Origin: a virus
Strand: one strand, 5' to 3'
IMG/VR virus record: IMGVR_UViG_3300025151_000130
Location: 1-35,811 of that record
DNA: 35,811 bases
Of the stretch, positions 8,895 through 25,092 are shown piece after piece (position 1 is the stretch's first letter; the number at the start of each line of letters is the position of its first letter). A program made the position numbers and the translations under genes. Below the pieces are notes generated by a model that did no database searches, was not told the DNA's origin, and saw only the letters and a program-made list of their open reading frames with translations.

Positions 8895-8925
8895 ACTAAT
8901 TAATAGGAAAGCAGGAGTATAAATA

Positions 8926-9483: not shown

Positions 9484-9503
9484 TAAATGACATAATTATA
9501 TAA

Positions 9504-10061
9504 ATGTCAGATATAAACTATACACAAACTGTACGCTCCTCTTTGCAAAGTAATTTTCGGTTTTTACTGAGAATTGATGATATTCCATTTGCAATGGTTT
9601 CAAATGTCAGTAGACCATCACCAAATTTTGAAGCGCCAAAAACATTTCAGTTATTGAATTGGAGATTTAAAAATCCAGGTGCAGTTGTGTCTTGGAATGA
9701 TCTAACATTTAAAGTTGTTGAGAGTTTTGACAACGAAAAATTTGATAGTATCTCTGGTATATTACTTAATACCTATAAAAGACTTGGATATGATAATCCA
9801 AATCAAATTAATCCAACAAATCTTAAAGATATGAACAAAAGGGATTTAATAAATTCTATAGGAACTGTTAAAATAGAGGTGTTAACACCTGATGGTGATG
9901 TATACGAGACTTGGCAGTTATATAATGCGTTTGTTTCAAAGATTGATTTCGACGGTTTAAATTATGCTGGAGCAAGTATTTTGGGAGCATCAGTCTCATT
10001 ATCTTATGACTGGGCAGATATGACTTATAGAACTGCATCAGGTAGAGAAACGACTTATTAA
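9504..10061 (+). CDS. second tail-tube-fold protein (gp19 paralogue)
   Basis: A 185-residue protein with the same order of motifs as the preceding tube protein. NFRFLLRIDDIPFAM parallels RQFKFILTIGDIPAW, VSRPSPNFEAPKTF parallels CDRPNPNFDGTVNH, ETWQLYNAFVSKIDFDGL parallels ETWTLFNSFVSDVNYSAL, and ASVSLSYDWADM parallels VTLKFSYDYATV. The two are clearly related but divergent. It may be a minor tube ring, a tube terminator/initiator such as gp3 or gp54 (which share the tube fold), or a second tube subunit. No Shine-Dalgarno stands out before the ATG (only an A/T-rich leader), so it may be translated less than its neighbour. Confidence 0.8.
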   Translation: MSDINYTQTVRSSLQSNFRFLLRIDDIPFAMVSNVSRPSPNFEAPKTFQLLNWRFKNPGAVVSWNDLTFKVVESFDNEKFDSISGILLNTYKRLGYDNPNQINPTNLKDMNKRDLINSIGTVKIEVLTPDGDVYETWQLYNAFVSKIDFDGLNYAGASILGASVSLSYDWADMTYRTASGRETTY

Positions 10062-10072
10062 ACGAGGTTAAA

Positions 10073-10864
10073 ATGCAAAAATTTGATATGACAGATGACG
10101 TTAGATCATCTGAGTTGAATGGCGCAACATTCTTTGTTGATTTGCCAACAAAGGGAGCGTCTTATCCCGAAGGACATCCTTTTCATGGCAAAGAAACGAT
10201 TGAAGTTAAGATGTTGACAATGAAAGAAGAGGAAATTCTTTTGAACTCCTCTTATGCACAGAAGGGTGTTTTGGTCGATAAGCTTTTACAAAGCATTGTT
10301 TTGGAAAAAGACTTTAATCCAAAAGAGATTTTTGAAACAGATCAATTAGCTATATTGATTGCTGCTAGAATTGATGCATATGGCGAAGATTATGGTGTAA
10401 CAATTGAGTGTATGTCATGCGGCGAGGATTATGACGCAGATTTAGATCTTTCAAAGATATTAGAGAATGTAAATGTCCCAGACATTGAGACAACTGAAAA
10501 TGGTACGTTTATTATTGAGCTACCAAAATCAAAGAAAGTTGTGGAATACAAAATTCTGTTGCCAACTGAAGCCAATTCTGTTAAAAAGACAACAGAAAAA
10601 ATGCAGAAAATGAACATAAACACATCTGAACAAAAAGAATTCTATAAAAGAATACTTTTAAGTGTTGATGGTAACACTGACCGTGAAGTAATTTCTAATT
10701 TTATTGATAATATGCGAATTATGGATTCACGATTTTTAACTAAGAAGTATGGAAATTGTTTGCCATCGATTAATGCTTCATTCAAGTCAGCTTGCTCTCA
10801 TTGTAATCATGAACAAGAAGGAGGTCTGCCTATCCAGGCGAACTTTTTTTTCCCTGAATTCTAA
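10073..10864 (+). CDS. baseplate/tail assembly protein, T4_baseplate (PF12322)-like, likely frameshift donor
   Basis: A 263-residue protein between the tube and tape-measure genes. The sequence LTMKEEEILLNSSYAQKGVLVDKLLQS, continuing to LAILIAARIDAYGEDY and a Cys pair, is the pattern I know from the phage 'T4 bacteriophage base plate protein' family. Cysteines occur as two CxxC pairs (113/116 and 241/244), suggesting one structural zinc. In tailed phages this slot usually encodes a tail assembly chaperone that binds the tape measure. The gene ends with an eight-T run (10844-10851) whose sequence continues in a second frame (next entry), with a perfect AAGGAGGT at 10818-10825. A programmed frameshift is therefore likely. 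The family call is fairly firm; the chaperone role is inference. Confidence 0.75.
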   Translation: MQKFDMTDDVRSSELNGATFFVDLPTKGASYPEGHPFHGKETIEVKMLTMKEEEILLNSSYAQKGVLVDKLLQSIVLEKDFNPKEIFETDQLAILIAARIDAYGEDYGVTIECMSCGEDYDADLDLSKILENVNVPDIETTENGTFIIELPKSKKVVEYKILLPTEANSVKKTTEKMQKMNINTSEQKEFYKRILLSVDGNTDREVISNFIDNMRIMDSRFLTKKYGNCLPSINASFKSACSHCNHEQEGGLPIQANFFFPEF

Positions 10865-11018
10865 TTATATTCAAAGCGTGTACGAAAATATTATATTTTT
10901 GGCACAATCTGGATGGAGTTATTCTGAAGTTTCAAAATTTCCAATAAAGAAGAGGGATTGGCTGTTTGAAACATTTGTCGCAGCAATGAAAACGGATGAA
11001 ATAACAGAGGATATATAA
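10842..11018 (+). CDS. downstream frame of tail assembly protein (probably made by frameshift)
   Basis: This open frame overlaps the end of the previous gene in the +1 (equivalently -2) frame and runs to a TAA at 11016. After the T run it encodes about 55 residues: NYIQSVYENIIFLAQSGWSY, then a short helix and PIKKRDWLFETFVAAMKTDE. This resembles the second domain of tail assembly chaperones. No start codon with a Shine-Dalgarno exists after the upstream stop. The only possibilities are a GTG at 10878 and a TTG at 10899, with no purine-rich site. An ATG at 10749 lies deep in the upstream gene and gives an unlikely N-terminus. I therefore prefer ribosomal slippage in the eight-T run to a separate gene. 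The start coordinate given is the frame entry point, not a start codon. Confidence 0.6.
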   Translation, partial: TFFSLNSNYIQSVYENIIFLAQSGWSYSEVSKFPIKKRDWLFETFVAAMKTDEITEDI

Positions 11019-12401
11019 TTGGCAACGCCACAAGAAAATGCAGAGAAGATCGTTCAAGCTATCGGAGAGATGGCTGGACCTATATCTAAAGTTAATACTG
11101 AGCTATCAGTAACTCGCAAGGCTTTAAACCTTATAAATCAAGATCTTTCAAACTCAACAATTCAGTTTTTAGCTTTTTTTAATGAAATTCAAGAACTGCA
11201 AAAAAGAGCAGTTACCGAGATAGGTTTTTTAGATTTCAATGAAAGCATTGAGAGAGGAGTTGATTTATTTAAAGACTTAAATGCGGCGGGAACTGATTAT
11301 GCAATCACCCAAAAGAACATTAATGATACTATTTTTGATCTAGCAAAGAATTTTGAAGCTACGGGAATTAGTGTTAAGGGTCTTGATAGGGCAATCGCAG
11401 CTAACAGTAACCTTGTGGAAAGATCGAAATTGGTTCAGTTCGTTACTGACTTAAGCTTTCAGCAAGAGAAGGGTTCAAGAATAGCAGCAAGATTTTCAGA
11501 TAGTTTGATTGGATTATCAATTGCACTAAAAAGACCACCCGGCGAGTTATTAAACTTAACTCAGGGCTTGCTAAACAGTAATGCGACATTTGCTCAGTCA
11601 GAAGAAGTTTTAAAGAGGTTGGCAGTTAGGTCTTCGCAGCTTGGAAGGATGTTTAACACATCAAGTCAGTCTTTGAACCAAGCACTTGGTGCGACGTTTA
11701 CAATTCAGCAGAGACAAGAACAGGCGGCAAGGCTTTCACAAATCGCTGGCAGATTGCAATTGGGCATTGACACATCGGGTCTATTAAGTTCTGATCCAGA
11801 AACAAGACAAAAGGCTATTGTACAAATTGTTCAACAGCTTAATAGGCGTGCAAAAGGTCTTAGCCCAGCAATTAGACAAGCTTTGATTGCAGCATTAGGA
11901 CCTACTGTCATTGGAACAGCGTTGGGACCAAAAGGCTTAAGAGCGTTAGGAACAAGAGATTTTAGCGCCCAGGCATTGGAAAAAGCACCACGCACCGCAC
12001 CTGCCGATCTTGACGCAGCAAGGCGCGGGGCAGCTACAGCAAAAGATGTTCTTGAGCAGAGAGTACGCGCCAAGGCTTTAAATGCTGCACAAACACAACT
12101 ACGTGAAGTAACTAGAAAACTTGGCTCCGAAGTAACAAAAATGACAGAAGCAACTCAAGTTTTAGCTTCGGCAACAGTTGATGGTAGTGCTGCTCTATCT
12201 AAAGCAGCGGGAATTTTATCTGCCAGTGCAGCACAAATAATAACAAAACTTTCAGCAAAAGTTCTAAAAATGCTTGGTGTTATTGAAAAACTACCGCCAA
12301 GTGTCAGAGGACCCCTACAACAAGAGATTGATGAAATAAAAGCTGGCATGAGAGAGTTAGCAGAAAAAACAGGTGCTGTTCTTCCAGGTGCAACGAAATA
12401 A
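11019..12401 (+). CDS. tape measure-like tail protein (gp29 position)
   Basis: A 460-residue, almost entirely helical protein rich in Ala/Leu/Gln. Segments such as FNTSSQSLNQALGATFTIQQ, then RQEQAARLSQIAGRLQLGID with LLSSDPETRQK, match the repeated texture of tape measure proteins of marine phages. Tape measures set tail length and are ejected ahead of the DNA. T4 gp29 has 590 residues; at about 1.5 angstrom per residue, 460 residues would give a tail of roughly 70 nm, if the whole chain is stretched. Translation starts at TTG, directly after the upstream TAA, with AGAGG 8 bp before it. That tight junction with the assembly-chaperone frame is typical. A hub protein is the main alternative. 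Confidence 0.65.
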   Translation: MATPQENAEKIVQAIGEMAGPISKVNTELSVTRKALNLINQDLSNSTIQFLAFFNEIQELQKRAVTEIGFLDFNESIERGVDLFKDLNAAGTDYAITQKNINDTIFDLAKNFEATGISVKGLDRAIAANSNLVERSKLVQFVTDLSFQQEKGSRIAARFSDSLIGLSIALKRPPGELLNLTQGLLNSNATFAQSEEVLKRLAVRSSQLGRMFNTSSQSLNQALGATFTIQQRQEQAARLSQIAGRLQLGIDTSGLLSSDPETRQKAIVQIVQQLNRRAKGLSPAIRQALIAALGPTVIGTALGPKGLRALGTRDFSAQALEKAPRTAPADLDAARRGAATAKDVLEQRVRAKALNAAQTQLREVTRKLGSEVTKMTEATQVLASATVDGSAALSKAAGILSASAAQIITKLSAKVLKMLGVIEKLPPSVRGPLQQEIDEIKAGMRELAEKTGAVLPGATK

Positions 12402-12425
12402 ATTTATTTTAATAATAATTACTGT

Positions 12426-13259
12426 ATGGCAATTAACCTTGGAAATGATTATTTAACAAGCCTCGTTGATTCACAGCTTAGTGCTGTTGACGATGCTTTC
12501 TCTAGTAATGTTGGTAATGATACAACAATAAAAACGGCTTTACCGGCAGAAGCAGGAATTAGAAATTCGTTAGCTTTCTCTAATATTAGAATTAGTTTTC
12601 CAACAAGACAAGGTAATATACCATTTTTAAATGCACTAACAACAAATTCTTTATATTTTCCAGCGTACATAACTACTTTTGACGACAACTATACTGTCGG
12701 TGTGACAGGTGAACAAGTCTTTGGTAGAACTGATCCAACCCCTGTTTACAGAGGCGTTACCAGAACAATATCAGTAGCATTAAATATTCCATGCTTTGAT
12801 GCAAACGACGCAAATGAAAATTTAAAAAAGATTAATAAGTTTATTCAAAACTTATATCCATCTTACAATAGTTTTAAAGGTGATTTGATTGTAGGCTCAC
12901 CACCCTTGATTAGAGTTAAATTTGCAAATCTGATTACAAATCAATTAAGAGGGTCTGGTGGATTGCTTGGTTATGTGACCAATTTTAAATATAACTTTAA
13001 TCCAGGTGATGGCTTTTACTTTTCAAGTAGAAATGGAACACAAAATTCAACAAACTTATTCTTTAGAAGTTACACAATGACATTTACTTTTTCAGTCTTA
13101 CACGAAGACGTGGTTGGTTTTGTTGACGGTAGATCAAGTTCAACCCGTGAATTCCCATATAAAACAAATGTCGGTAGGTTTAACCCAGCAGAGGTTTTCA
13201 CAGGTAGATATGCGCCAGTTAGTCCAGACACAGCAGAAGAACAGCAATTAGGCGGTTAG
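12426..13259 (+). CDS. baseplate tube initiator/cap-like protein (gp48/gp54 type)
   Basis: A 277-residue, beta-rich protein between the tape measure and gp53-like genes. The block TGEQVFGRTDPTPVYRGVTR followed by TISVALNIPCFD (about residues 95-127) is the 'GR.dPi..Y..TTR.i.l...i' pattern seen in T4-like baseplate proteins that sit where the tube begins. A helical NLKKINKFIQNLYPSY follows, then strands such as PPLIRVKFANLI. T4 places gp48 and gp54 at this structural position, and both have a tube-like fold. Assignment to one or the other is not possible by eye. The start ATG at 12426 lacks an obvious Shine-Dalgarno and follows an A/T-only leader. Confidence 0.6.
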   Translation: MAINLGNDYLTSLVDSQLSAVDDAFSSNVGNDTTIKTALPAEAGIRNSLAFSNIRISFPTRQGNIPFLNALTTNSLYFPAYITTFDDNYTVGVTGEQVFGRTDPTPVYRGVTRTISVALNIPCFDANDANENLKKINKFIQNLYPSYNSFKGDLIVGSPPLIRVKFANLITNQLRGSGGLLGYVTNFKYNFNPGDGFYFSSRNGTQNSTNLFFRSYTMTFTFSVLHEDVVGFVDGRSSSTREFPYKTNVGRFNPAEVFTGRYAPVSPDTAEEQQLGG

Positions 13260-13624: not shown

Positions 13625-16618
13625 ATGGAACTATTTTACCCAGGAAAAGGGATTACAGTAGATCAAGATAATCTATTAGATCAAGCGTTCCTTATACAGT
13701 CAATTCTGCCAAACATTGCCAACTCTAAAAATAATAATAAAATTTACAAGTTTTTTAAAGAGTATCATAAGGAACAGCTTTTAAAGTCTTTTGAGATGAA
13801 CAAGAGAACAATCTCTTTAAACACATCATATGGCTGTGATTTTGAATCTGAGATTAGATTTGCTTCTATTGATGATAGAACCAAACACATTAAACTAATG
13901 CAGAATTTGACAACAGTTCAAAAGTCTGCTTTAGCTCCATACGTTCGATTATATTTGGTTCCTAATCCATATACAAAAACAGCTTTAGACTTTAAAAGAA
14001 ACGCCATTCCTCTTGCATTTGGCAAAAGTTTTGACTTGGACTTTTATTTGAACAAGAAGAGGCAAGGTACATTTTCTCAAAGATTAGAAAATACAGCAGT
14101 CAATTCTTTCGATAATACAAAAATTAGCTCAACAAGTCGTGGTGAGTTGGCGGCAATTCAATCAATGACAGTTGGAAGAGTATATAACCAAACAAACGTT
14201 TTTGATCCAATCAACATTGATATGACGTTTTATTTTTCCTCATTTGACGTATTTGCACATAAACCAGCAATTGAAGCTTCTAGCGGCTTTGAGACTTACT
14301 TGAACAGATTGTCTCAAGGAGGTGGACTTAGCAGTTTTTATAGTGACCTCAGAGATTTAAGATACACAGAGTTAATCACTTTACAAAATAAAGACTTTAA
14401 ATTAGTTGTTGAATATGGCTGGAATGTTGACGATAGTGTTTCCGAACAAGTATTTAGCTTTCTTGATAAACAGAGAATTAAAAAGTTTGAAAAAACTTTC
14501 TATCTTCTTAATCCGCAAGATCACCGTATAAACTTTTCAGATGATGGTAGCTTTACAATGTCTGTTAAGTATGTGCCTTCTACTGTTGATAGCATTTTTA
14601 AATCCACAGATATCAAAACAGGACTTCTATTAAACGAAGAAGTTTTCAAAAAGGTCAAAGGTGCGGCATCGGAGAACATACAAGAAAAAGTTAAAAAAAT
14701 TAAAAAACTAAATTCTTTGAGATACGAAGATGCAACTAAAGAATTGAAAAGATTAAAAGATATATCAAAACTAAAAGAAGAACTGTCTAGCTTAAAAGCA
14801 GTAAACTATGTAAATTTATTTGAAAGGTTTTGTCGCGAATCCGACATAATATATCGTGCTGCTGTTGAAACAGAAGTTGTAGATTCAAAATATGTCTTTA
14901 GAACAACACTTGCTAAAAATTTTACTAAGAGTTCTAACGTTAACGAAAGACCTGTACCTATTGGGAGAGAAGCTTCAGATTTTTCACTGTATAATGTAAA
15001 CCAAATTATTGATAAGATAAAAACTTTAAGAAAGAAAAACAAATTAGAAACAGAGGATTTATCCGAGGAAGAGAGATTAAAAGACATAGATTTTTTAGGG
15101 TTTACAAAAGTAGGTCTTACACGAATTACACCGGAAATAAGACAAGACCCAAGGTATAAAGACCGCTTTGATAAACTATCGCGTGATATTGTAAAAGATG
15201 TATTAATAAATTTTCAGAATAGAAAATTTATAAGTTTCATGCTTTTTAGAGATGTCTTGAACGTTATAATTGAGTTAGCAAAAGTTTCTGGTCCAAAAGA
15301 TGAAATTCCATATTTTGTATTGGGAAATTTTGCGATGCCATTACCAAACGGAAAAAAGTATTGGTGCAATGTTGGAGACATTCCAATTGAACTCAGAACT
15401 TTAAAGGGTAATATGAAAAGTTTCTTTAATAAAAGACCAAAAGCTTCTTTTAAAGATTTTTTATATTATTTCTTACATGATGTATTTCCCTCGATTGTGG
15501 TTCAGAAGGGGCAAAAAGCAGCACTTCCAACAATGAGTTTTCCATTTTTTCACTTTAACCAAAAAAAGTGGGACGGAAATTCTAAAGATAAGAAAAACTA
15601 CTTTGATTTAATTGATGGTAAAAAAGAAAGTTTAACAAAGTTTGGAAAAGAATATTTTAACGACTCTGATTTTGATGGTTCAATTGGATGTCTATTTGTG
15701 GGACAATCACCAAGACTAAGTTTTGAAAATTCATCATTCTTTGTTGGTAAAAATGTTAAGATTGCGTCAGATGCTTTCTTAAAGAACGATGAAGAGCTTT
15801 TAAAGGTTGGAATTGGTAAAATGCTTGTAGGCAGTTCAAGAGGTCTGGTCAAAAGATTATCATTTAACTCTTCTGGTGATCAGTATATTAACAACTTAAA
15901 CTATGAGTTAAATAAGCAAAAGCCAGGAATAGGTCCAGTGCTCATTTCATCTGCCTATCAGTACACGGTTAGTGCCACTTTATATGGCAATAGAATATAT
16001 GAGTTTTCAAATCTAATATATATCCCTGCTGCAAGCCTTGGGTATAGTCCCCAATCTGCCGAAGACGCTTTGAAAAGAGTTGGCTTTGAAGATTTTGAGA
16101 TTGGTGGAATATATTCAATAAACAATATAACAGATCAAGTTGATTTAAAGGCAGGTACTTATACAAAAAATATTAGTGCTTCTACAATTAGAAGAGAATC
16201 TCAGTTGGTTGGAAAGGCATTAAGAGAAGTTAAAAAATCTAATGATAAAGAAGTTCTTTTTCCTTCAAACGGCATAGATTATACTTTACCAGATTATCTC
16301 TATGATAACTCAGAAAAGATTGATAAGCTTTTTAAAGTAAAGATTAAAAAAGTTCTTGTGGACGTATTGTTTGAACGCAGCGGACTTGAGCTTCCTATCG
16401 GACAAACTTTGGAAACTGAAACGCTTACTTTGGGTGCTGGAGTTGGAACAAACTTGACAGATCAGGCTCTTCCATCTCAAATTCAGGCTAGTCTAGACGC
16501 CCCAACCACGATAGACACACCTGCGACGCAAGCGAGCAGTCCTTCAGGACTATCACTAAGTCCACAGCCCAGTCCTGGCACACCAGGATTATCTTTGAGC
16601 ACGGGAGGAGATAGTTAA
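13625..16618 (+). CDS. large virion/baseplate-associated protein, unrecognised
   Basis: A 997-residue protein I cannot name. The N-terminal ~350 residues alternate beta strands and loops. They include VRLYLVPNP, an INIDMTFYFSSFDVFA strand and FKLVVEYGWNVDD, followed by SFTMSVKYVPST. This texture recalls large structural proteins of other giant or marine myovirus baseplates. Residues about 370-500 are strongly helical and Lys/Glu/Leu-rich (coiled-coil-like). The last ~70 residues are a Ser/Pro/Thr/Leu linker (SSPSGLSLSPQPSPGTPGLS) ending in a Gly-Asp tail. No catalytic motif or membrane segment is visible. Position between gp53-like and a second unknown, with a 1-bp gap upstream and a TAATG overlap downstream, argues for a baseplate component. 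Confidence 0.8.
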   Translation: MELFYPGKGITVDQDNLLDQAFLIQSILPNIANSKNNNKIYKFFKEYHKEQLLKSFEMNKRTISLNTSYGCDFESEIRFASIDDRTKHIKLMQNLTTVQKSALAPYVRLYLVPNPYTKTALDFKRNAIPLAFGKSFDLDFYLNKKRQGTFSQRLENTAVNSFDNTKISSTSRGELAAIQSMTVGRVYNQTNVFDPINIDMTFYFSSFDVFAHKPAIEASSGFETYLNRLSQGGGLSSFYSDLRDLRYTELITLQNKDFKLVVEYGWNVDDSVSEQVFSFLDKQRIKKFEKTFYLLNPQDHRINFSDDGSFTMSVKYVPSTVDSIFKSTDIKTGLLLNEEVFKKVKGAASENIQEKVKKIKKLNSLRYEDATKELKRLKDISKLKEELSSLKAVNYVNLFERFCRESDIIYRAAVETEVVDSKYVFRTTLAKNFTKSSNVNERPVPIGREASDFSLYNVNQIIDKIKTLRKKNKLETEDLSEEERLKDIDFLGFTKVGLTRITPEIRQDPRYKDRFDKLSRDIVKDVLINFQNRKFISFMLFRDVLNVIIELAKVSGPKDEIPYFVLGNFAMPLPNGKKYWCNVGDIPIELRTLKGNMKSFFNKRPKASFKDFLYYFLHDVFPSIVVQKGQKAALPTMSFPFFHFNQKKWDGNSKDKKNYFDLIDGKKESLTKFGKEYFNDSDFDGSIGCLFVGQSPRLSFENSSFFVGKNVKIASDAFLKNDEELLKVGIGKMLVGSSRGLVKRLSFNSSGDQYINNLNYELNKQKPGIGPVLISSAYQYTVSATLYGNRIYEFSNLIYIPAASLGYSPQSAEDALKRVGFEDFEIGGIYSINNITDQVDLKAGTYTKNISASTIRRESQLVGKALREVKKSNDKEVLFPSNGIDYTLPDYLYDNSEKIDKLFKVKIKKVLVDVLFERSGLELPIGQTLETETLTLGAGVGTNLTDQALPSQIQASLDAPTTIDTPATQASSPSGLSLSPQPSPGTPGLSLSTGGDS

Positions 16619-18171
16619 TGCCAGAATTTAATATTCAATCTTTAACTTTTAAACCTGAAGAGAAAAGCGTTGTAAAAGAAAAACTTGAAGTTATTGATGT
16701 CACTAATGGTTCATCAACAGCAGAGAGATATAAAAGTCGTCTTGTGTATAAAGAACAGGTAAATGATAAAAATTTACCAGTAGGTAATGAAAATTCAAAA
16801 GGTGTTAGTACAAGAAATCAATTAGACATTTGGTATGACAATCTTTTCTACGGAAAGAAAGATTTTGCAAATAGATTAATCACTGTTGTTTTTAATAATC
16901 AAAATTTCAAAACAATCTCAGGTACAAATTTATCAGCACTAAATTTTGTTGCTGATGCGGTTAATAATTTTTTAGTTCAATTTAATGAAGATAGAGCCAC
17001 ACACCCTCAAAGCAGATTAAATAATATAAAAATTGTTAAAGCATATTCACCACAACAAAATTATGATATATACTTCAGAAGTCTCTATGAGAGATTTTTC
17101 AATGACGTTCTAAATGATATAAAGTATACAAACAAGATAAAAAATATAAATGATTTTACAAAATTATTTTATCTCTGGGCTTTAAACACAAATGATCCGA
17201 TCACAGAAACAGGATTTTACAAAAGTCAAAAATATGATTTGTACAATACAGGGTTTGCTGTGGATTTTTCTGTGATTAACTCTGATAAAGATAAAGAACT
17301 TATTTTAAATGATCCAAGATTTGAAGCTCTTAATTATGTTGCTAAGATAAATGGTTTAAAGATTGATCCAAATTATCCTGTAAGATTAATAGCAGATTTA
17401 AAATCAGAAGCCTTATTACAGTCTTATGCACAAAACTATTTTCCTAATGCTGGTTTGTTTGAATTACCAGAGCTTGTATATAAAAACTACTTTATAAGAA
17501 GAAACTTCTATGCTTCATCTGAGGCACTAATATCTGACTTTTTAGGAAAAATTATTAAAATATATAATTTATTTATAGACAGATATAAATATAGATCCGA
17601 CTTTTCAACTAGCGGAAACTTAAGTCAAAGTTTTCTAAAAAAATTTGAAACAAATAAAATAAAAAGAGAGAAGGGTAATTTAAGTGCATTCTTTGAGCCA
17701 AATCAAAATGGAGATCTGATTATTAAATCAGAAGCAGTGAAAACCTATATACAGTTTAGGGCAAAAGAAGAAGATATAAAATTAAACAAGGGAGAACTAA
17801 AATTTTTAACTAATAATATTTCTAATATAGTAAAATTAGATGGTGGAACTGTTTATGTCCAAAATTCACAGTTTAATGAAGAGAAGTTTTTAATTCAATC
17901 ACAAGCGGTAAATTACTTAGAAAACTTTTTATTCACCAAAAACAACAAAGATAAAAATAATACCAGAGATTTTATATTTTTCTGGAATAGAGGCAGAGAA
18001 TACGTTAAAAACTTTACAACATTTTCTGAGAGCGAGGCTTTGTTTTCTTACTTACTTGCTGCTTTAGACGCCAAAAGAATTAAATGTATTGGAGTACACC
18101 AGATGGAAAGCGGTCTTTTTATGCCTTGTAAGTCGCACGAAGAATATTTGCGCTTGACAGGTGGCTATTAG
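16618..18171 (+). CDS. unrecognised structural-module protein
   Basis: A 517-residue protein starting in a TAATG overlap with the previous large gene, hence likely translationally coupled and from the same module. It is rich in Asn, Lys, Phe, Tyr and Ile, with A+T-rich codons. Helical stretches lie around residues 145-185 (YDIYFRSLYERFFNDVL) and 290-330. The final 90 residues contain FLFTKNNKDKNNTRDFIFFW and a compact end with ESGLFMPCKSHEEYLRLTGG. I see no known fold, signal or catalytic set. A full sigma70 promoter for the polymerase is embedded in its last 18 bp. A baseplate or tail-fibre-attachment role is possible but only by position. Confidence 0.75.
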   Translation: MPEFNIQSLTFKPEEKSVVKEKLEVIDVTNGSSTAERYKSRLVYKEQVNDKNLPVGNENSKGVSTRNQLDIWYDNLFYGKKDFANRLITVVFNNQNFKTISGTNLSALNFVADAVNNFLVQFNEDRATHPQSRLNNIKIVKAYSPQQNYDIYFRSLYERFFNDVLNDIKYTNKIKNINDFTKLFYLWALNTNDPITETGFYKSQKYDLYNTGFAVDFSVINSDKDKELILNDPRFEALNYVAKINGLKIDPNYPVRLIADLKSEALLQSYAQNYFPNAGLFELPELVYKNYFIRRNFYASSEALISDFLGKIIKIYNLFIDRYKYRSDFSTSGNLSQSFLKKFETNKIKREKGNLSAFFEPNQNGDLIIKSEAVKTYIQFRAKEEDIKLNKGELKFLTNNISNIVKLDGGTVYVQNSQFNEEKFLIQSQAVNYLENFLFTKNNKDKNNTRDFIFFWNRGREYVKNFTTFSESEALFSYLLAALDAKRIKCIGVHQMESGLFMPCKSHEEYLRLTGGY

Positions 18172-18182
18172 CCTGTTATACT
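18154..18182 (+). promoter_or_regulatory. sigma70 promoter for polymerase operon
   Basis: TTGACA (18154-18159), 17-bp spacer, TATACT (18177-18182). The -35 lies inside the coding end of the preceding gene. The predicted transcription start is about 18189, right at the polymerase ATG. Confidence 0.85.
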
Positions 18183-18188
18183 GTTGGC

Positions 18189-19376
18189 ATGTTTTTCTCA
18201 AAAATCGATTCAAAAAATAACTGCAAAAGCATTTATGCAGACAACAAAGTATTCTCAGATTATGATGAGGGTATGAAATATACTTGGACTTATCAAGAAG
18301 ATCTACCACAGGATGTTAAGTTTGTAAAACTGTTCTGCGGTGGTAAAGATTACTTGGAACTGCTCCCAAAGCGTGATGCAGAAGAATACAAATCACTTGA
18401 AAACAAGATCAAGAACACTCTCAAGTCATATAGTGTGTGTGGATATGATCCTCGTGGATATTGTTTGGATGAGTTAGTGGGCAAGACCTTTATTGAGGAC
18501 TTCTTTAATCTCAAGAATAAAGCAATGGAGCTTGCAGTAAAGAACTTCCCAGAACCAAAGAATTATGCTCAGTTGGAAAAGATTGAGCGTTTAGTTCATT
18601 CTATTTCAAAGCGTCAGTTGAACTTGGATCTTACAAATGTCTACACAGCAGCGAACGACAACCGTATCAGGAAGATCATCAAGAGGTACTCAAGTAGTCC
18701 CGCCTTTATCCACTACAACACCTTCGGGACCGTTACGGGGCGGTTATCTACTACCCCCTCTTCATTTCCCATCCTTACCCTAAACAAAGAATATCGAAAC
18801 ATGATTACACCAAATAATGGTGTTTTTGTAGAGTTTGATTATAATGCCTTTGAATTACGTGTTCTTACGGCTCTGCTTGGACGTGAGCAGCCGAAAGGGG
18901 ATATCCACGACTGGAACATCAAGAATATTTTTGAGGACGGTACAATCCGTTCTGAAGCGAAACAGAGGATATTTGCTTGGTTGTACAATCCCAACTCTAA
19001 TGATAAGCTTTTATCTGAGAAGTACGATCGAAAAGGTCTGTTGAAAAAATATTTTTCTGATGGTAAGATTGTAACTGACTTTGACCGTGAGATTGAGGCT
19101 GATGATTATCATGCACTTAACTATCTAATCCAAAGTACGGCATCTGACTTGTTTTTGGAGCAGGTATATAAGGTATTCAAGATTTTAGAAGACAATAATG
19201 CTAAATCTTATGTATCGATGCTTATTCATGATAGTATGATCTTAGATTTTGATAGAATGGACTACAAACTACTAAACCAGATCAAAGATGCTTTCAAGCA
19301 AACAAGATATGGCGACTTCAAACTAAATATTCAGGTCGGAAGGACATTAGGAGATCTAAGCACAGAATGGAAGTAA
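18189..19376 (+). CDS. polA: family A DNA polymerase, polymerase domain only
   Basis: A 395-residue enzyme with all family A polymerase motifs but no room for a 3'-5' or 5'-3' exonuclease domain. Visible are T..TGRLS (residues 181-187), motif A VEFDYNAFELRVL (Asp217), motif B with Arg254, Lys258, Phe262 and Tyr266 at the exact R-x3-K-x3-F-x3-Y spacing, NYLIQSTASDLF (311-322), and motif C IHDS (346-349). Motif C normally reads HDE: catalytic Asp348 is kept, but the Glu is replaced by Ser. Phe262 equals Pol I Phe762. The first ~100 residues match nothing I recognise. Proofreading may come from a separate gene, as I recall for the distant T4-like phage RM378. A 5'-3' exonuclease is encoded nearby. 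The ATG at 18189 lacks a Shine-Dalgarno; Met29 (18273) is an alternative start. Confidence 0.9.
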   Translation: MFFSKIDSKNNCKSIYADNKVFSDYDEGMKYTWTYQEDLPQDVKFVKLFCGGKDYLELLPKRDAEEYKSLENKIKNTLKSYSVCGYDPRGYCLDELVGKTFIEDFFNLKNKAMELAVKNFPEPKNYAQLEKIERLVHSISKRQLNLDLTNVYTAANDNRIRKIIKRYSSSPAFIHYNTFGTVTGRLSTTPSSFPILTLNKEYRNMITPNNGVFVEFDYNAFELRVLTALLGREQPKGDIHDWNIKNIFEDGTIRSEAKQRIFAWLYNPNSNDKLLSEKYDRKGLLKKYFSDGKIVTDFDREIEADDYHALNYLIQSTASDLFLEQVYKVFKILEDNNAKSYVSMLIHDSMILDFDRMDYKLLNQIKDAFKQTRYGDFKLNIQVGRTLGDLSTEWK

Positions 19377-20212
19377 TCGGTATTGGTAATGCAGGGCGTG
19401 AGATTTGTAAAGTATTTGAGCAGAAAGGGTATAAAGCATACTCTATTGACAATCACAGCGATGCTTTTATAAAGTTTCCTAAAGTAAAGACGATTGAGGA
19501 AGCAGAAAAGGTTGAAATAGACCTTTCACAACTAAAAAATAACATAAAATCGGATCAGATCCTGTGTGTAATGGCAGGATCTGGACTTATAACAGGTGCT
19601 TGCCTTAGAATTTTAGAGAATTTCAGAGATAAGAAGATTGATTTTCTTTATATTCAACCTGATACTTCATTTATGAACAATAATGGTAAGACAAGAGAGC
19701 GAGTTGTAAGAAATATTCTACAAGAGTTTGCCCGTTCAGGGTTATTCAACAAAATGTGGATGGTTTCCAACAAAAGTATCTCTAACCTCTCGTCAGATAT
19801 ATCGATTGGCAACTATTTTGAGAAGGTCAACGAGAAAGTAGTTGACATGTGGCATCTGATGGAGTATTATAGTCAGGCAACTGCGTTGATGGGGAACTTG
19901 GAAGAACCACAAGAGCAGAATAGGATCGCAACTTTTGGTCTGTATAGTTTAAACGACGAGACAGAGCAGAAGTTCTATGAACTAGAAGGGGTGAGAGAAA
20001 AACACTTTTACTTTACTTTTAGTGAAGAAACATTGAGTGAAACAGGCAATGTTTTAGAATTAGTATCTCGTAAATTGGATAAAGCAAGAGAAAATGAATT
20101 TCAGGAAATATCTTATGGCTTTTTCTCATCGGGATATACTGTTGACAAAGTGTACATAATGTACTATACTAATCATATACAAAGCGAGACAGGAAAATCA
20201 CCTGTCTTATAA
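19367..20212 (+). CDS. putative FtsZ/tubulin-fold protein in the replication operon
   Basis: A 281-residue protein overlapping the polymerase stop by 10 bp. By eye it follows the FtsZ/tubulin order. VIGIGNAGREICKVFEQKG (3-21) resembles the FtsZ 'VIGVGG.G.N' strand-loop-helix, and AYSIDNHSDAF resembles 'AINTDAQ.L'. A glycine loop AGSGLITGA (70-78) lies where FtsZ has GGGTGTGAA. IDFLYIQPDTSFMNNNGKTR with a long helix (91-125) parallels 'VAVVTKPF.FEG..R'. MWMVSNKSISNL (130-141) parallels 'LIVIPNDKLL', and ISIGNYFEKVNEKVVDMWHL (145-164) parallels the core H7 helix. The second half is smaller than usual (about 112 residues) and lacks a clear T7 catalytic loop. The nucleotide loop is degenerate, so GTPase activity and polymerisation are uncertain. 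The main alternative is an NAD-type Rossmann protein. Confidence 0.6.
   Translation: MEVIGIGNAGREICKVFEQKGYKAYSIDNHSDAFIKFPKVKTIEEAEKVEIDLSQLKNNIKSDQILCVMAGSGLITGACLRILENFRDKKIDFLYIQPDTSFMNNNGKTRERVVRNILQEFARSGLFNKMWMVSNKSISNLSSDISIGNYFEKVNEKVVDMWHLMEYYSQATALMGNLEEPQEQNRIATFGLYSLNDETEQKFYELEGVREKHFYFTFSEETLSETGNVLELVSRKLDKARENEFQEISYGFFSSGYTVDKVYIMYYTNHIQSETGKSPVL
20142..20170 (+). promoter_or_regulatory. sigma70 promoter for single-strand binding protein
   Basis: TTGACA (20142-20147), 17-bp spacer, TATACT (20165-20170), inside the end of the upstream gene. The predicted start near 20177 gives a ~50-nt leader that contains the hairpin at 20187-20207. Confidence 0.87.
20187..20207 (+). promoter_or_regulatory. 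leader hairpin upstream of the SSB ribosome binding site
   Basis: AGACAGG (20187-20193) pairs perfectly with CCTGTCT (20201-20207) around a 7-base A-rich loop. It lies 5 bp before the Shine-Dalgarno AAGGAG (20213-20218). In T4 the gp32 mRNA leader carries a structured element bound by gp32 to repress its own translation. A comparable autoregulatory role here is inference. No T tract follows, so it is not an intrinsic terminator. Confidence 0.5.
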
Positions 20213-20226
20213 AAGGAGAAAATAAT

Positions 20227-20967
20227 ATGGCTATTGATTTGAGTAAAATGCGTGCGAAACTTGCTGCTTCAGAGGGCAAGGGCGGTGGTTCAAGTAAGAA
20301 CCTTTTCTGGAAGCCAACAGATGGCGAGAGTGTTATTCGTATTGTTCCAGATGCAGACGGAGACCCCTTCAAGGAGTATTGGTTCCATTATAATGTTGCT
20401 AATGCCCCAGGTTTCCTATCACCTAAGAAGAATTTTGGTGAGGAGGATGTGCTAGATAAGTATGTTCGCAAGTTGTTCAACGATGGTACAGAGGAGAGCC
20501 GCGAGGAAGCGAAGAAGCTAATGGCAAAGCAGCGTTTCTTTTCCCCTGTAATTGTTCGTGGCGAAGAGGAAAAGGGTGTTCGTCTTTGGGGTTACTCCAA
20601 GACCGTTTACCAGAAGTTACTACAGTTGGTTCTAAACCCAGAGTATGGCGATATTACTGATCCAGAAGAGGGTACTGACCTAACCATTAATTATGGTAAG
20701 AAGGCAGGACAGATGTTCCCAAGCACTGACATCTTCCCAGCCCGTCGTACATCACCTCTACACAGTGACCGTAACATCGCTAAGGATCTTGTTGATACTG
20801 ACATCGATTATGATAATGTGTTTAGCAAGAAGACCCCAGATGAGGTTCAGCAGTTGTTGGAGCAACACCTATCAGGTGATACCGATGACAGCACCGGTAC
20901 TGTTCAGTATGCACAGAACACCGAAGACGCAGCAGACCAAGCATTTAAGTCCTTGCTTTCTGCGTAA
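20227..20967 (+). CDS. gp32: single-stranded DNA-binding protein (T4 gp32-like)
   Basis: A 246-residue protein that coats single-stranded DNA during replication and recombination. The N-terminal region has a short basic-polar arm (LSKMRAKLAASEGKGGG), then FWKPTDGESVIRIVPDADGD and EYWFHYNV. These are the strand pair that opens the OB-fold in gp32 proteins ('.RIvP...D.f.e...HY'). The C-terminal ~40 residues are acidic (HLSGDTDDSTGT, EDAADQAF) and end in FKSLLSA, like the gp32/SSB acidic tail that recruits replication partners. The Cys-rich zinc site of T4 gp32 is absent, as in several marine T4-like phages. It has its own promoter, leader hairpin and strong Shine-Dalgarno. A terminator follows, so it forms a separately controlled, likely very abundant product. 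Confidence 0.87.
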   Translation: MAIDLSKMRAKLAASEGKGGGSSKNLFWKPTDGESVIRIVPDADGDPFKEYWFHYNVANAPGFLSPKKNFGEEDVLDKYVRKLFNDGTEESREEAKKLMAKQRFFSPVIVRGEEEKGVRLWGYSKTVYQKLLQLVLNPEYGDITDPEEGTDLTINYGKKAGQMFPSTDIFPARRTSPLHSDRNIAKDLVDTDIDYDNVFSKKTPDEVQQLLEQHLSGDTDDSTGTVQYAQNTEDAADQAFKSLLSA

Positions 20968-20981
20968 GATAGTGCTATAAT
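20953..20981 (+). promoter_or_regulatory. extended -10 promoter for uvsX
   Basis: TTGCTT (20953-20958), 17-bp spacer, TATAAT (20976-20981) with a TGC extension immediately before the -10. The start would be near 20988, inside the 5' arm of the terminator hairpin. New transcripts would therefore carry only part of that arm. Confidence 0.65.
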
Positions 20982-20982
20982 G

Positions 20983-21012
20983 GGCGAGGGGGCAAGTCCC
21001 CCTCGCCTTATT
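20983..21012 (+). terminator. intrinsic terminator between SSB and uvsX
   Basis: A perfect 10-bp G/C-rich stem, GGCGAGGGGG (20983-20992) with CCCCCTCGCC (20998-21007), has a 5-base loop and is followed by TTATT. The T tract is short, so termination may be partial, letting some SSB transcripts reach uvsX. Confidence 0.8.
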
Positions 21013-21025
21013 CTATGGAGACAAA

Positions 21026-22135
21026 ATGGCTAAAACAAAAAGCGGCAAGCTTTCTATTGCCGATATGAAAAAGTTGATAAACAAGAAAGCAGGCGTTGAC
21101 GTTGCTTTTTCTTTATCAGATGATAACCCAACAGAAGTAAATCAGTTTATCCCGACTGGTTGTAAATGGCTTGATGGTATTATCAAGCGTGGTGATTGGG
21201 GTGGTATTCCTGTGGGTAAGGTTAGTGAGATTGCTGGTTTAGAAGCAACTGGTAAATCTTATATGGCAGCACAGATTGCAGGTAATGCCCAAAGAATGGG
21301 AATTGATGTTGTTTATTTCGATTCAGAGAACTCTATTGATCCAGGTTTCTTAGCAAATGCTGGATGTGATATTGAAAGATTACTTTATGTTCAGGCAAGT
21401 TCAGTAGAGTTTGTATTGGAAACTATTGAGAGCCTATTGGCAAACAACGATAGTCAAATGCTCTTTATCTGGGATAGTATGGCACTTACACCATCTGTTT
21501 CTGATATTGAGTCGGACTTCAATCCACTCTCTACGATGGCAGTAAAGCCTCGTATTCTTTCCAAGGGCATGTCTAAGTTGATTCAACCGATTGCAAATAC
21601 AAAGTCAACTTTGCTTATTCTAAATCAGTTGAAGACCAACATTACAAGGAATACAGCAGAGGCATTGACAACTCCTTACTTTACCCCAGGTGGTAAGGCA
21701 CTTGCTTATTCCTACTCTTTGCGTATCTGGCTGACAGCACGTAAGGGTAAGTCATCTTTTATCTTTGATGATAAGGGATTTAGGATTGGTACAGAGGTCA
21801 AGGCAAAGATTGAGAAGTCCCGCTTTGGAACTCAAGGTCGTAACTGTGCTTTCAAGATTTTGTGGGCAGGTGAACAGGTCAAGATTATGGACAAGGAAAG
21901 TTGGTTTGAGGCAATCAAGTCATCTGATAAACTAACAAATGCAGGTGCTTGGTTTACTCTACATCATGATGATGGAACACAAGATAAGTTCCAATCGAAG
22001 CAGTGGTTGAATAAGTTAGAAGAAGAAAAATTTTATAATACAGTACAGAAGTTGTTAGAGGAAGAAGTGGTAATGAAGTTTGACAAGCGTATTGGCGATT
22101 CAAGCGATTTTTATGAGGATAAGGAGGAGAAGTAA
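21026..22135 (+). CDS. uvsX: UvsX/RecA-type recombinase
   Basis: A 369-residue strand-exchange ATPase. Walker A is GLEATGKS (71-78), preceded by IPVGKVSEIA. VVYFDSENSIDPGFLANAG holds the catalytic-acid segment, QMLFIWDSMA is Walker B, and LLILNQLKTN is the RecA-type 'Q' switch region. Loop L2 lies in the TTPYFTPGGKALAYS stretch. The C-terminal domain has a helix-turn region (KSSDKLTNAGAWFTL) and ends acidic. The length is close to T4 UvsX (391). In T4-like phages UvsX drives recombination-dependent replication with gp32, whose gene is just upstream. A GGAG precedes the ATG. The stop overlaps the next start (TAATG). Confidence 0.95.
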   Translation: MAKTKSGKLSIADMKKLINKKAGVDVAFSLSDDNPTEVNQFIPTGCKWLDGIIKRGDWGGIPVGKVSEIAGLEATGKSYMAAQIAGNAQRMGIDVVYFDSENSIDPGFLANAGCDIERLLYVQASSVEFVLETIESLLANNDSQMLFIWDSMALTPSVSDIESDFNPLSTMAVKPRILSKGMSKLIQPIANTKSTLLILNQLKTNITRNTAEALTTPYFTPGGKALAYSYSLRIWLTARKGKSSFIFDDKGFRIGTEVKAKIEKSRFGTQGRNCAFKILWAGEQVKIMDKESWFEAIKSSDKLTNAGAWFTLHHDDGTQDKFQSKQWLNKLEEEKFYNTVQKLLEEEVVMKFDKRIGDSSDFYEDKEEK

Positions 22136-22272
22136 TGAACCCATCTAAAAAGGGCGCACGTAAGAAGATAAGCAGAAAAAAGACAAATCAGGGAAATGGA
22201 ACCTTCAGTAAAAGATTCCACAACAAGCGATCAAAAACATACAAGAAGCGATACAGAGGACAAGGGAAATGA
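22135..22272 (+). CDS. 45-residue highly basic protein
   Basis: A short frame from the ATG that overlaps the uvsX stop (TAATG) to a TGA that overlaps the exonuclease ATG (ATGA). Both junctions are coupling-type, and GGAGG lies 8 bp before the start, so this is very probably a real gene. About 20 of 45 residues are Lys or Arg (for example KKGARKKISRKK and RSKTYKKRYRGQGK), with almost no acidic residues. A nucleic-acid-binding role is likely from charge and from its place between recombinase and exonuclease, but no named family is recognised. Confidence 0.75.
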   Translation: MNPSKKGARKKISRKKTNQGNGTFSKRFHNKRSKTYKKRYRGQGK

Positions 22273-23228
22273 CAGAGAGATCTCTAATAATTGACGGCAC
22301 AAATATATTCTACAGAGCATATGTAGTAAATCCATCTTTATCTAACAGCGGGTTACCCGTTGGTGGGTTGGTTGGTTTTTTAAAGTCATTACAAAAACTT
22401 ATTAGAGAAATGAAACCAACCAAGGTTTTCGTTTGTTGGGATGGGGCAGGCGGGTCTTCACGACGAAGATCCGTTGTGTCCTCATACAAGGAAGGTAGAA
22501 AGGCAATTAGGTTGAACAGATCTACAGGTGTTTCACTTTCTTTGGAAGAGGAAAACCAAAGCAAGTTACGTCAGATAATGCGTTTATTTGAGTATCTTGA
22601 TAACTTACCTCTCATTCAGTTGATGCACGATGGTGTTGAGGCAGACGACATGATTTCTATTTTGTGTCAGGAGTTGAGAGGCGAGCAAAAAATAATTGTT
22701 TCAAGTGATAAAGATTTTTATCAATTGTTGGATGATGAGACAATTATTTATCGTCCAGTGCAAGCAGTATTCAAAACTAAAAAGGATATTGTGGAGGAGT
22801 TTCAGATTCATCCAAACAACTTTGCCCTAGCAAGAGCGGTTAGTGGTGATAAGAGTGATAATTTACAAGGTGTTAAAGGTGCAGGGTTAAAAACCCTAGC
22901 AAAGCGTTTCCCCTTCTTGGTAGAAGAAAAAGATTATAGTTTAACTGATTTAGTTGATGCGTGTGAGGAAACAGAGAATAAGTTAAAAATCCATGAAGGC
23001 ATTATTGACAATTACGACAAGATCCTAAAGAACTACAAGATTATGCAGCTATACGTCCCGAGTGTTTCATTCCAGGTGAGAGATATAGTAAAGAATGCAA
23101 AAGAGAACTATTCAAGATATTACAATAAAACAGAGATTGTTAAGATGATGTTTACGGATGGTTTCCCACAGATCAGTTGGACAGACCTTTTTGCTCACTC
23201 AAACAGGATTGCTTCCATAAAGGACTAA
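22269..23228 (+). CDS. 5'-3' exonuclease / RNase H (FEN family)
   Basis: A 319-residue nuclease of the FEN/PIN family, like T4 Rnh, T5 D15 and the N-terminal domain of Pol I. It removes RNA primers and 5' flaps. Metal-binding acids stand in order: Asp9 in IIDGTNIFYR, Asp58 in FVCWDG, EADD (124-127), SSDKDF (145-150, two Asp) and SGDKSDN (192-198). The helix-hairpin-helix DNA-binding motif GVKGAGLKT follows at 201-209. It supplies the 5' nuclease function missing from the short polymerase upstream. Its ATG overlaps the TGA of the small basic gene. Confidence 0.93.
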   Translation: MTERSLIIDGTNIFYRAYVVNPSLSNSGLPVGGLVGFLKSLQKLIREMKPTKVFVCWDGAGGSSRRRSVVSSYKEGRKAIRLNRSTGVSLSLEEENQSKLRQIMRLFEYLDNLPLIQLMHDGVEADDMISILCQELRGEQKIIVSSDKDFYQLLDDETIIYRPVQAVFKTKKDIVEEFQIHPNNFALARAVSGDKSDNLQGVKGAGLKTLAKRFPFLVEEKDYSLTDLVDACEETENKLKIHEGIIDNYDKILKNYKIMQLYVPSVSFQVRDIVKNAKENYSRYYNKTEIVKMMFTDGFPQISWTDLFAHSNRIASIKD

Positions 23229-23248
23229 TTATATTCGGAGGTTTTGAG

Positions 23249-23656
23249 ATGAAAAATTTCAAAGAAATGGTATACGGTAATCTTTTTGAGGCGAAAATGG
23301 CAAAAAAGGATTATGATGGTGATGGAAAAATTGAAACATCCACCGAAGAATACTTAGGTTCCCGAGATAAAGCAATCAAAAAAGCAACAGGAAAGCTTGA
23401 GGAAGAAAAAGAAGTTGCAACTGATGAAGAAATCAAGAAAGTTGTAATTGATATTTTAGATGAAGAAGGCGGCGCATCCGGTTTAGATCCAATCAAGGTC
23501 GCAGTAGAGAAGTTGAATCTCCCAGAAGATTTTAATCTTGAAGATTTTTTAGATTCTTTGCCCGATGACGAAGTTAAAAGGCATGAAGAAAAAGATTACA
23601 TTGAAATGACTGGGTTAAAAGAAGAAAACACGGCTGTAACAAACTCTGAAGAGTAA
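23249..23656 (+). CDS. acidic protein with EF-hand-like loop
   Basis: A 135-residue, strongly acidic protein. The ATG at 23249 is chosen because CGGAGG lies 8 bp upstream; an earlier in-frame start would read back into the exonuclease gene. Residues 19-40 contain KKDYDGDGKIETSTEEYLGS. DxDGDG followed by an Ile resembles a calcium-binding EF-hand/dockerin loop, although the closing acidic residue is at position 13 rather than 12. Similar 'KKDYDGDGK.E....EY.GSR' segments occur in small proteins of marine T4-like phages as I remember them. The rest is Glu/Asp/Lys-rich helix. Function is unknown. A promoter for the helicase begins 7 bp after the stop. Confidence 0.75.
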   Translation: MKNFKEMVYGNLFEAKMAKKDYDGDGKIETSTEEYLGSRDKAIKKATGKLEEEKEVATDEEIKKVVIDILDEEGGASGLDPIKVAVEKLNLPEDFNLEDFLDSLPDDEVKRHEEKDYIEMTGLKEENTAVTNSEE

Positions 23657-23662
23657 TATCAC

Positions 23663-23691
23663 TTGACATCAACAACCATTCTTGCTATAGT
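23663..23691 (+). promoter_or_regulatory. sigma70 promoter for helicase operon
   Basis: TTGACA (23663-23668), 17-bp spacer, TATAGT (23686-23691) with a TGC extension before the -10. The expected start near 23698 gives an ~18-nt leader containing AAAGGTGA before the ATG at 23716. Confidence 0.85.
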
Positions 23692-23715
23692 GGTAGACCC
23701 AACAAAAGGTGATCT

Positions 23716-25092
23716 ATGCGTACAAGCGAGAAAGTGGACTTTTCTAAGTTCGGTAATATGTTTCAAGAGAATCTTGCCAAGCTTATCCTTATGGATAGGG
23801 CTTATTCTGACCAGATTGGCGAGGTTCTTGAGACTGAATATTTCGAAACAAAATATCTGAAAAGATTCACAAATCTAATTTATCAATATAAAGAAAAGTA
23901 TGAGGTTCATCCGTCGATGAACCTCATGGCGTCTCTAATCAATACAGAGATGGACAAGGAAGACGACTTGGTAATCAAGCAAGTTCGTGATTTCCTTATT
24001 CGTATTCACTCAGACCCAGCAGTGCAGGGTGAGGAATACATCAAAGACACTGCTTTGGACTTTTGTAAGAAGCAGAAACTAAAAGAAGCAATCGTAAAAT
24101 CAGTTCGTCTTTTGGAGAAATCTTCATTTGACGAGATTAGTGATTTGATCAACGAAGCACTCAAGTTAGGTCAGTCAAATGACTTTGGTTATCATTATCT
24201 AAAAGATTTTGAGAAACGTTTTGAGATTAAAATTCGCAGTCCGTTGACAACAGGTTGGAAAACCTTTGATGACCTGATGCAAGGTGGTCTTGGCGCAGGC
24301 GAACTTGGCGTTGCTATGGCAGGAACTGGCGCTGGTAAAAGTCATATTCTTGCTCACTTAGGTGCTCAAGCGTTGAAAAATGAAAAGACCGTAGTACATT
24401 ATACTCTAGAACTTTCTGAGACAGTTGTTGCACGTCGTTATGATTCGTGTATCACAGGCGTAAAACTAAAAGATCTAAACGTGTTCAAGGATAATATTTT
24501 AGAGAAGGTCAAAGATATTAAGGGAACTTTGATTGTAAAAGAGTACCCAACAAAATCAATCACTACTACAGCAATTAAGAACCATCTTTCTAAATTGAAG
24601 ATGCGTGGAATTGAACCAGATATTATTATTGTTGATTATGCTGATTTGATCAGCCCTAAAAAGAGTTATGGTGAAAAACGACACGATTTAGAATCAATTT
24701 ATGAGGAGTTGCGAGGAATTGCTCAAGAGAATAGTTGTCCAATTTGGACCGTTTCTCAGACGAATAGGACAGGGTACAACGCAGAACTTGTCACAATGGA
24801 GTCAATTTCGGAGGCTTTTTCCAAATGTTTTGTTGCCGACTTCATATTTACTCTATCCCGAACTACCGAGGATAAAAACAACAATACAGGAAGGTTCTTT
24901 GTAGCTAAAAATCGTTTCGGACCAGACGGCTTAATTTACCCAGTCAAGATGGATACAAGCAATGTAAAGATTTCTGTTGAAGAGAATTCTATTGATCCGT
25001 CCGCTGTTGGCAAGAACGCTGCAAAAGAACAAAAAGATATGTTGAGACAAAAATATAAGGAACTTAAACAAGAAATGAAAGGAGATAAATAA
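23716..25092 (+). CDS. gp41: replicative DNA helicase (DnaB/T4 gp41 type)
   Basis: A 458-residue RecA-fold hexameric helicase. Residues 1-160 form a helical N-terminal domain like that of DnaB/gp41. TTGWKTFDDLMQGGLGAGEL leads into Walker A GTGAGKS (203-209). HYTLELSETVVARRYDS is the DnaB-type H1a/H2 segment, and IIIVDYADLI (303-312) is Walker B. The SQTNR motif (H3) and the SRTTEDKNNNTGRFFVAKNR arginine-finger region follow. It unwinds the fork ahead of the polymerase. The length fits T4 gp41 (475). No primase gene is seen in the window. The stop overlaps the next ATG in TAATGG, so reductase synthesis is likely coupled to it. Confidence 0.94.
   Translation: MRTSEKVDFSKFGNMFQENLAKLILMDRAYSDQIGEVLETEYFETKYLKRFTNLIYQYKEKYEVHPSMNLMASLINTEMDKEDDLVIKQVRDFLIRIHSDPAVQGEEYIKDTALDFCKKQKLKEAIVKSVRLLEKSSFDEISDLINEALKLGQSNDFGYHYLKDFEKRFEIKIRSPLTTGWKTFDDLMQGGLGAGELGVAMAGTGAGKSHILAHLGAQALKNEKTVVHYTLELSETVVARRYDSCITGVKLKDLNVFKDNILEKVKDIKGTLIVKEYPTKSITTTAIKNHLSKLKMRGIEPDIIIVDYADLISPKKSYGEKRHDLESIYEELRGIAQENSCPIWTVSQTNRTGYNAELVTMESISEAFSKCFVADFIFTLSRTTEDKNNNTGRFFVAKNRFGPDGLIYPVKMDTSNVKISVEENSIDPSAVGKNAAKEQKDMLRQKYKELKQEMKGDK

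Follow-up and report, generated by a model that had tools for sequence, protein, structure and literature searches.

Tubulins encoded by phages are a mark of the nucleus-forming Chimalliviridae, and only a handful have been described in other large phages (PMC11835377). PhuZ dynamics need the catalytic residue D190 (PMC4244570), and the contact between protofilament subunits involves loop T7 and the base of helix H8 in tubulin, FtsZ and phiKZ TubZ (PMC3678025). Here we compare these systems, together with archaeal CetZ and the TubZ proteins of Bacillus plasmids and phages, with a 281-aa protein encoded beside the DNA polymerase gene of an uncultured T4-like phage. The window, by which we mean the whole stretch of DNA that was analysed (35,811 nucleotides; IMG/VR record IMGVR_UViG_3300025151_000130), is a 35.8-kb fragment of a viral contig. 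The family to which this protein belongs has, as modelled, the fold of the superfamily, yet it lacks the hallmarks of FtsZ, PhuZ and TubZ. We found no earlier description of it in the open-access papers searched, among them one on the genes that surround polA in virioplankton (PMC6302109).

An earlier note on this DNA had placed a possible FtsZ/tubulin-like gene at 19367–20212, overlapping the polymerase gene and preceding the SSB gene. This arrangement is correct to the nucleotide, with an overlap of 10 nt between the 3′ end of polA and the start of the gene and a gap of 14 nt between its stop and the SSB start. From polA onward, the replication genes run in the following order, preceded by a gene of no assigned function:

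16618–18171, + strand: 517-aa protein, no assigned function, upstream of polA and kept across the clade
18189–19376, + strand: polA, family-A DNA polymerase, 395 aa (DNA_pol_A, E = 5.6e-16)
19367–20212, + strand: predicted tubulin-fold protein P0001, 281 aa, ATG start (ORF call with family and fold evidence)
20227–20967, + strand: gp32-like single-strand DNA-binding protein, SSB (E = 1.8e-12)
21026–22135, + strand: UvsX/RecA-like recombinase (E = 3.3e-49)
22269–23228, + strand: 5′-3′ exonuclease, FEN type (profile match)
23716–25092, + strand: DnaB-like replicative helicase (profile match)

Upstream of these genes the window encodes a gp23-type capsid protein (E = 5e-71), a sheath, a tube and a baseplate hub, and the genome is thus that of a T4-like myovirus; with gp32, UvsX and DnaB alongside these structural genes, the description of the region as a T4-like replication operon also holds. 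Measured against nine relatives, the tubulin-fold gene has a dN/dS of 0.08–0.17, demonstrating that the ORF encodes a real protein under purifying selection.

Several other genes of the window have features of their own. At 395 aa only, the polymerase has the family-A polymerase domain as its sole match, and its R-x3-K-x3-F-x3-Y motif (R254, K258, F262, Y266) carries Phe at the position of E. coli Pol I residue 762. Among the tail genes, adjacent ORFs at 8926–9483 and 9504–10061 both match phrog_4542 (tail tube) and look like a tandem duplication of the tube gene, and the product of the sheath gene at 5931–8894 is 987 aa long, with its first ~390 residues left uncovered by the best sheath family match. 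The 517-aa protein and a 997-aa protein (13625–16618), both upstream of polA, have a fixed place across the clade and no PHROG function; the C-terminal end of the former is a DUF3721-like stretch (E = 9.6e-7).

Searched as a single sequence against Pfam, PHROGs, NCBIfam, PDB sequences and GenBank phages, the window protein had no solid match. Its weak matches in Pfam, PHROGs, NCBIfam and PDB were mostly to NAD-binding Rossmann proteins by way of the GxGxxG loop, and weak N-terminal matches in Pfam, NCBIfam and PDB, family members included, were to TrkA_N, phosphogluconate dehydrogenase and KtrA/KtrC. Pfam Tubulin did not match the window protein, and TubZ_C_2 did not match it at E 10 nor, among the families listed, any of the family members searched, whereas PhuZ, the positive control, matched Pfam Tubulin and TubZ_C_2 (E = 1.7e-37). 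Across family members, TrkA_N was matched by 14 (best E = 0.007) and Tubulin by 3 of 52 (best E = 0.1). No relative was found in GenBank phages by tblastn with three members (the window protein and two distant ones). Iterated scans of IMG/VR expanded the set from 13 close loci to 141 and then to at least 594 stretches that encode relatives; those outside the close clade are mostly ~27–37% identical to the window protein. The family alignment used below contains 101 non-redundant members.

The structure was predicted from the 101-member alignment: AlphaFold2 reached a pLDDT of only 50 with nine near-identical sequences, compared to a pLDDT of 92.9 and a pTM of 0.90 with the full alignment. Foldseek comparison of this model with the PDB returned FtsZ as all of the best 50 matches listed (best E = 2.4e-12, probability 1.00, query TM 0.58–0.69). 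By VIA-align, the highest Z scores were 22.9 to Bacillus cereus TubZ (4ei7; rmsd 3.2 Å, 275 residues aligned) and 22.9 to CetZ (3zid), followed by 21.4 to FtsZ (2r6r) and 20.0 to eukaryotic tubulin, with a range of 19.6–22.9 over 252–275 residues for tubulin-superfamily matches; because several top rows tie to within 1 Z, no subfamily is singled out, and the absence of PhuZ from the best 50 VIA matches listed says nothing for or against kinship with it. The earlier note had proposed a divergent, minimal tubulin/FtsZ fold and had set a plain NAD-binding Rossmann fold as the contrary outcome; the model has two domains and is no such plain Rossmann fold, with VIA Z scores of 20–23 to TubZ, CetZ, FtsZ and tubulin along the full length of the protein. 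A profile-profile comparison with FtsZ upheld the expected register but was modest in strength: hhalign against 27 FtsZ sequences placed residues 2–163 onto FtsZ 14–194, the entire GTPase domain, with P = 8.5e-4, and a stricter variant scored 24.1, whereas none of 100 column-shuffled controls scored above 21.9. Identity to FtsZ in structure alignments was 12–16%. As the profile likeness to FtsZ is weak to modest, the claim of a common fold rests on structure, with sequence in support. On the evidence of the model, the window protein almost certainly has a two-domain tubulin fold around core helix H7, with residues placed in space from model secondary structure and the alignment:

19367–19804, + strand: predicted N-terminal GTPase-type domain, residues 1–146 (model secondary structure; hhalign register to FtsZ)
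19805–19876, + strand: predicted core helix H7, residues 147–170, with F151 and invariant N155 (model, alignment)
19877–19924, + strand: predicted short loop, residues 171–186, replacing the T7 loop and helix H8, with no N.D..D (model, alignment)
19925–20170, + strand: predicted C-terminal domain, residues 187–268, comprising strands, a hairpin replacing H9, helix H10 and S9–S10 (model)

Four short segments of the GTPase-type domain bear on whether the nucleotide site is kept:

19379–19396, + strand: T1 phosphate loop GxGxxG, residues 5–10; G5, G7 and G10 invariant (alignment)
19574–19600, + strand: T4-position loop AGSGLITGA, residues 70–78; GGGTG[SAT]G signature lost (hhalign, alignment)
19721–19741, + strand: QEFARSG, end of helix H5, residues 119–125; Q119, R123 and S124 invariant in 101 members
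19769–19771, + strand: N135, aligned with FtsZ N165 (hhalign, alignment)

The invariant residues of the 101-member alignment are G5, G7, G10, L80, Q119, R123, S124 and N155, and N135 is present in 100 members. Most of the FtsZ-like segments that the earlier note had picked out by eye belong to this conserved set. The N-terminal GIGNAG is the T1 GxGxxG loop, kept in 101 of 101 members; the strand end VSNKSI carries N135, which lies at the end of S5 and aligns with E. coli FtsZ N165; and the H7-like helix is modelled at 147–170, where N155 (101/101) aligns with FtsZ N186 and residue 151, aromatic in 94–98 of the 101 (98 when His is counted), aligns with FtsZ F182. In FtsZ itself, N165, F182 and N186 hold the guanine base, as N206, Y224 and N228 do in β-tubulin. 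Because the T1 glycines, N135, the aromatic residue at 151 and N155 are invariant or nearly so, it is likely that the usual pocket of the protein accepts a guanine nucleotide.

Two further likenesses held in position only. AGSGLITG, which had been read as the counterpart of FtsZ GGGTGTG, does lie at the T4 position, but what the family conserves there is G-S/A-G-x-I-S/T-G, and the tubulin signature [SAG]GGTG[SAT]G is found in 0 of 101 relatives compared to 27 of 27 FtsZ controls. SFMNNNGKTR, likened to FtsZ FEGxxR, falls at T5, but its R110 is present in 12% of members, and the resemblance is a matter of chance because it is not conserved in the family. The T7 acid motif N.D..D is likewise found in 0 of 101 relatives compared to 25 of 27 FtsZ controls, and at no one position between 172 and 185 is the residue acidic in more than 69 of the 101. 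In the model there is no helix at 171–186 (and so no H8), H9 is also missing, and no helix follows residue 268 where TubZ and PhuZ have the C-terminal helix H11. As seen in the alignment and the model, the missing tubulin signature, catalytic T7 motif and H8 go beyond what the earlier note described. Without a T4 signature, T7 acids or H8, the protein would have little or no canonical GTPase activity, and canonical hydrolysis-driven dynamics are unlikely. Loss of T7 and H8 also argues against a canonical filament, since elsewhere both contribute to the contact between subunits; a canonical protofilament is thus uncertain, and we lean slightly against the formation of a homopolymer.

Like PhuZ and phiKZ TubZ, the window protein is encoded by a phage of the lytic myovirus type and is predicted to combine a GTPase domain, H7 and a C-terminal domain. 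It differs from them in that its model has no helix H11 or extended tail, in that the window family has no conserved T7 acid whereas PhuZ has the catalytic D190, and in that the window gene adjoins polA whereas phiKZ phuZ does not adjoin the phiKZ polymerase gene. A query with phiKZ gp54 (chimallin) gave no match in 7 contigs, in a search run without a positive control. Likeness to FtsZ, the source of the best Foldseek matches, extends to the T1 loop, the N165/F182/N186 equivalents and H7 in register, whereas GGGTG[SAT]G, N.D..D, H8/H9 and a conserved C-terminal peptide of FtsZ type are missing from the window family. Compared to TubZ and CetZ, which gave the highest VIA scores, the protein is shorter, lacks H11 and is encoded in a replication operon, and no direct-repeat array resembling a TubZ centromere occurs in 16500–24000. 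BFVD holds a few further phage tubulin-fold structures; the closest viral structure there, A0A6J5RW92 ("FtsZ Cell division GTPase" of an uncultured Caudovirales phage; E = 2e-12, TMq 0.73), is 452 aa long compared to 281 aa for the window protein, and the two are 16% identical.

The position of the gene is highly constant. In 95 of 104 loci polA is found no more than 600 nt upstream, and in 114 of 116 the SSB gene follows within 1500 nt. Of 124 loci, 71 have the polA stop and the tubulin-fold start overlapping or separated by at most 30 nt, the commonest arrangement being a 4-nt overlap (38 loci). In ~40 of the 124, including L025, L027, L036, L039, L075, L081, L091, L116 and L149, a gap of ~300 nt separates the two genes and, where checked, holds an ORF of ~105 aa starting near KLVRDKIP; two examples of this small protein had no Pfam match at E 0.01, and we take it to resemble an all-alpha NTP pyrophosphohydrolase. 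When contigs were picked by their polymerase alone, the gene adjoined polA in 79 of 80, and the 80th ends too early to tell. The same gene therefore stands beside polA in all 79 testable contigs; the earlier note had named this arrangement in related phages as a check. In pairwise distances, the tubulin-fold protein tracks polA best among the pairs tested (r = 0.82, n = 66 phages). The gene is core in a large clade of uncultured T4-like phages. Operon position and co-evolution establish an association with replication genes, which falls short of a physical role in replication.

By capsid, the nearest sequenced relatives of the clade are Flavobacterium phage immuto, Microcystis phage Mel-JY01, LR756508 (uncultured) and Rhodothermus phage RM378. 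The first three have the polA-gp32-UvsX neighbourhood in common with the window clade, but the 101-sequence profile found no homologue between polA and SSB in any of them, where small or unrelated ORFs lie; the same profile found no homologue in the whole RM378 record. Core in the clade and undetected at the sister loci, the gene is a marker of the clade, and a gain at the base of the clade (or a loss in the sisters) is probable. A hit in a WOR-3 genome (L159, CP070664.1, MAG bin77) was considered as a clue to the host and rejected as a scaffolding artefact. At 7588–12827 of that record, a ~5-kb phage fragment carrying the 517-aa homologue, polA, the tubulin-fold gene, SSB and part of UvsX sits amid ordinary bacterial genes; because it is bounded by two exact 100-N runs (7588–7687 and 12728–12827), the record is chimeric there and gives no host. 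In L132, an apparent one-stop read-through joining the tubulin-fold gene to SSB was set aside as a chance in-frame gap.

A role in replication or in the placement of replication is likely. Taken as a whole, the best explanation, towards which we lean, is that the window protein is a stripped-down member of the tubulin/FtsZ superfamily that acts as a scaffold of the phage replication site, probably binding GTP and hydrolysing it poorly. Translational coupling would produce it together with the polymerase and SSB; once loaded with GTP, it could form a static or slow oligomer or filament, alone or with a replisome partner, and this assembly would keep and organise the replication site. More specifically, and only tentatively, a non-hydrolysing tubulin fixed in the replication module, evolved independently of the PhuZ spindle of jumbo phages, may keep polymerase and SSB, and hence the replicating genome, in one place in the form of a static filament, ring or tether loaded with GTP.

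The main rival to a scaffold is a replisome accessory that does not polymerise but sits as a monomer or dimer on the polymerase or SSB, serving without any filament as a GTP switch, a nucleotide-pool sensor or a processivity aid. Loss of the T7 acids, of H8 and of the C-terminal helix of TubZ would suit such a protein, as would its tight coupling to polA and SSB, the evolutionary distances it has in common with them and the invariance of Q119, R123 and S124. Known members of the tubulin fold are, however, mostly filament proteins, and to our knowledge no tubulin-fold polymerase accessory has been described; we regard this alternative as unlikely, if the most serious. Less likely still, and in our view improbable, is an inhibitor of host division that caps or co-assembles with host FtsZ and halts division during infection. 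A protein of FtsZ fold that has the GTP pocket and lacks the catalytic T7 face would make a suitable filament cap, but identity to FtsZ is just ~12–16%, and the gene is strictly core, slow-evolving and fixed behind polA among replication genes, whereas the division inhibitors known to us are accessory and fast-changing; organisation of the replication site fits core status better than blocking of host FtsZ. That the protein is an NAD-binding Rossmann protein resembling FtsZ at the GxGxxG loop only, as the weak TrkA_N, phosphogluconate dehydrogenase and KtrA/KtrC matches might imply, is hardly credible and is largely refuted by a model in which residues 1–281 align to tubulin-fold proteins, including H7 and the C-terminal domain, and the best 50 Foldseek matches listed are FtsZ.

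A scaffold of the replication site is the reading we prefer, and the results suggest that a cytoskeleton-type protein has been built into a viral replication module. A tubulin-fold family missed by standard profiles is core in a clade of hundreds of contigs and tied to polA, which would widen the known use of tubulin-type proteins beyond the phage tubulins linked to Chimalliviridae. It would represent a natural tubulin in which the predicted nucleotide pocket is kept and the catalytic face is lost. The organisation of the replication site in mid-sized phages would become a question open to tests with one purified protein, and at least 594 public viral stretches carry a gene that thereby gains a function-level annotation.

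Two minor observations concern possible contact sites. The invariant Q119, R123 and S124 (19721–19738), located where helix H5 ends, could belong to a contact surface; we know of no catalytic role for the matching place in FtsZ. An acidic C-terminal tail, DDQDIG or DDQ(D/E)IS, which the window protein lacks, is present in L027, L035, L054, L098, L105, L149 and other loci and might serve as a partner-binding peptide.
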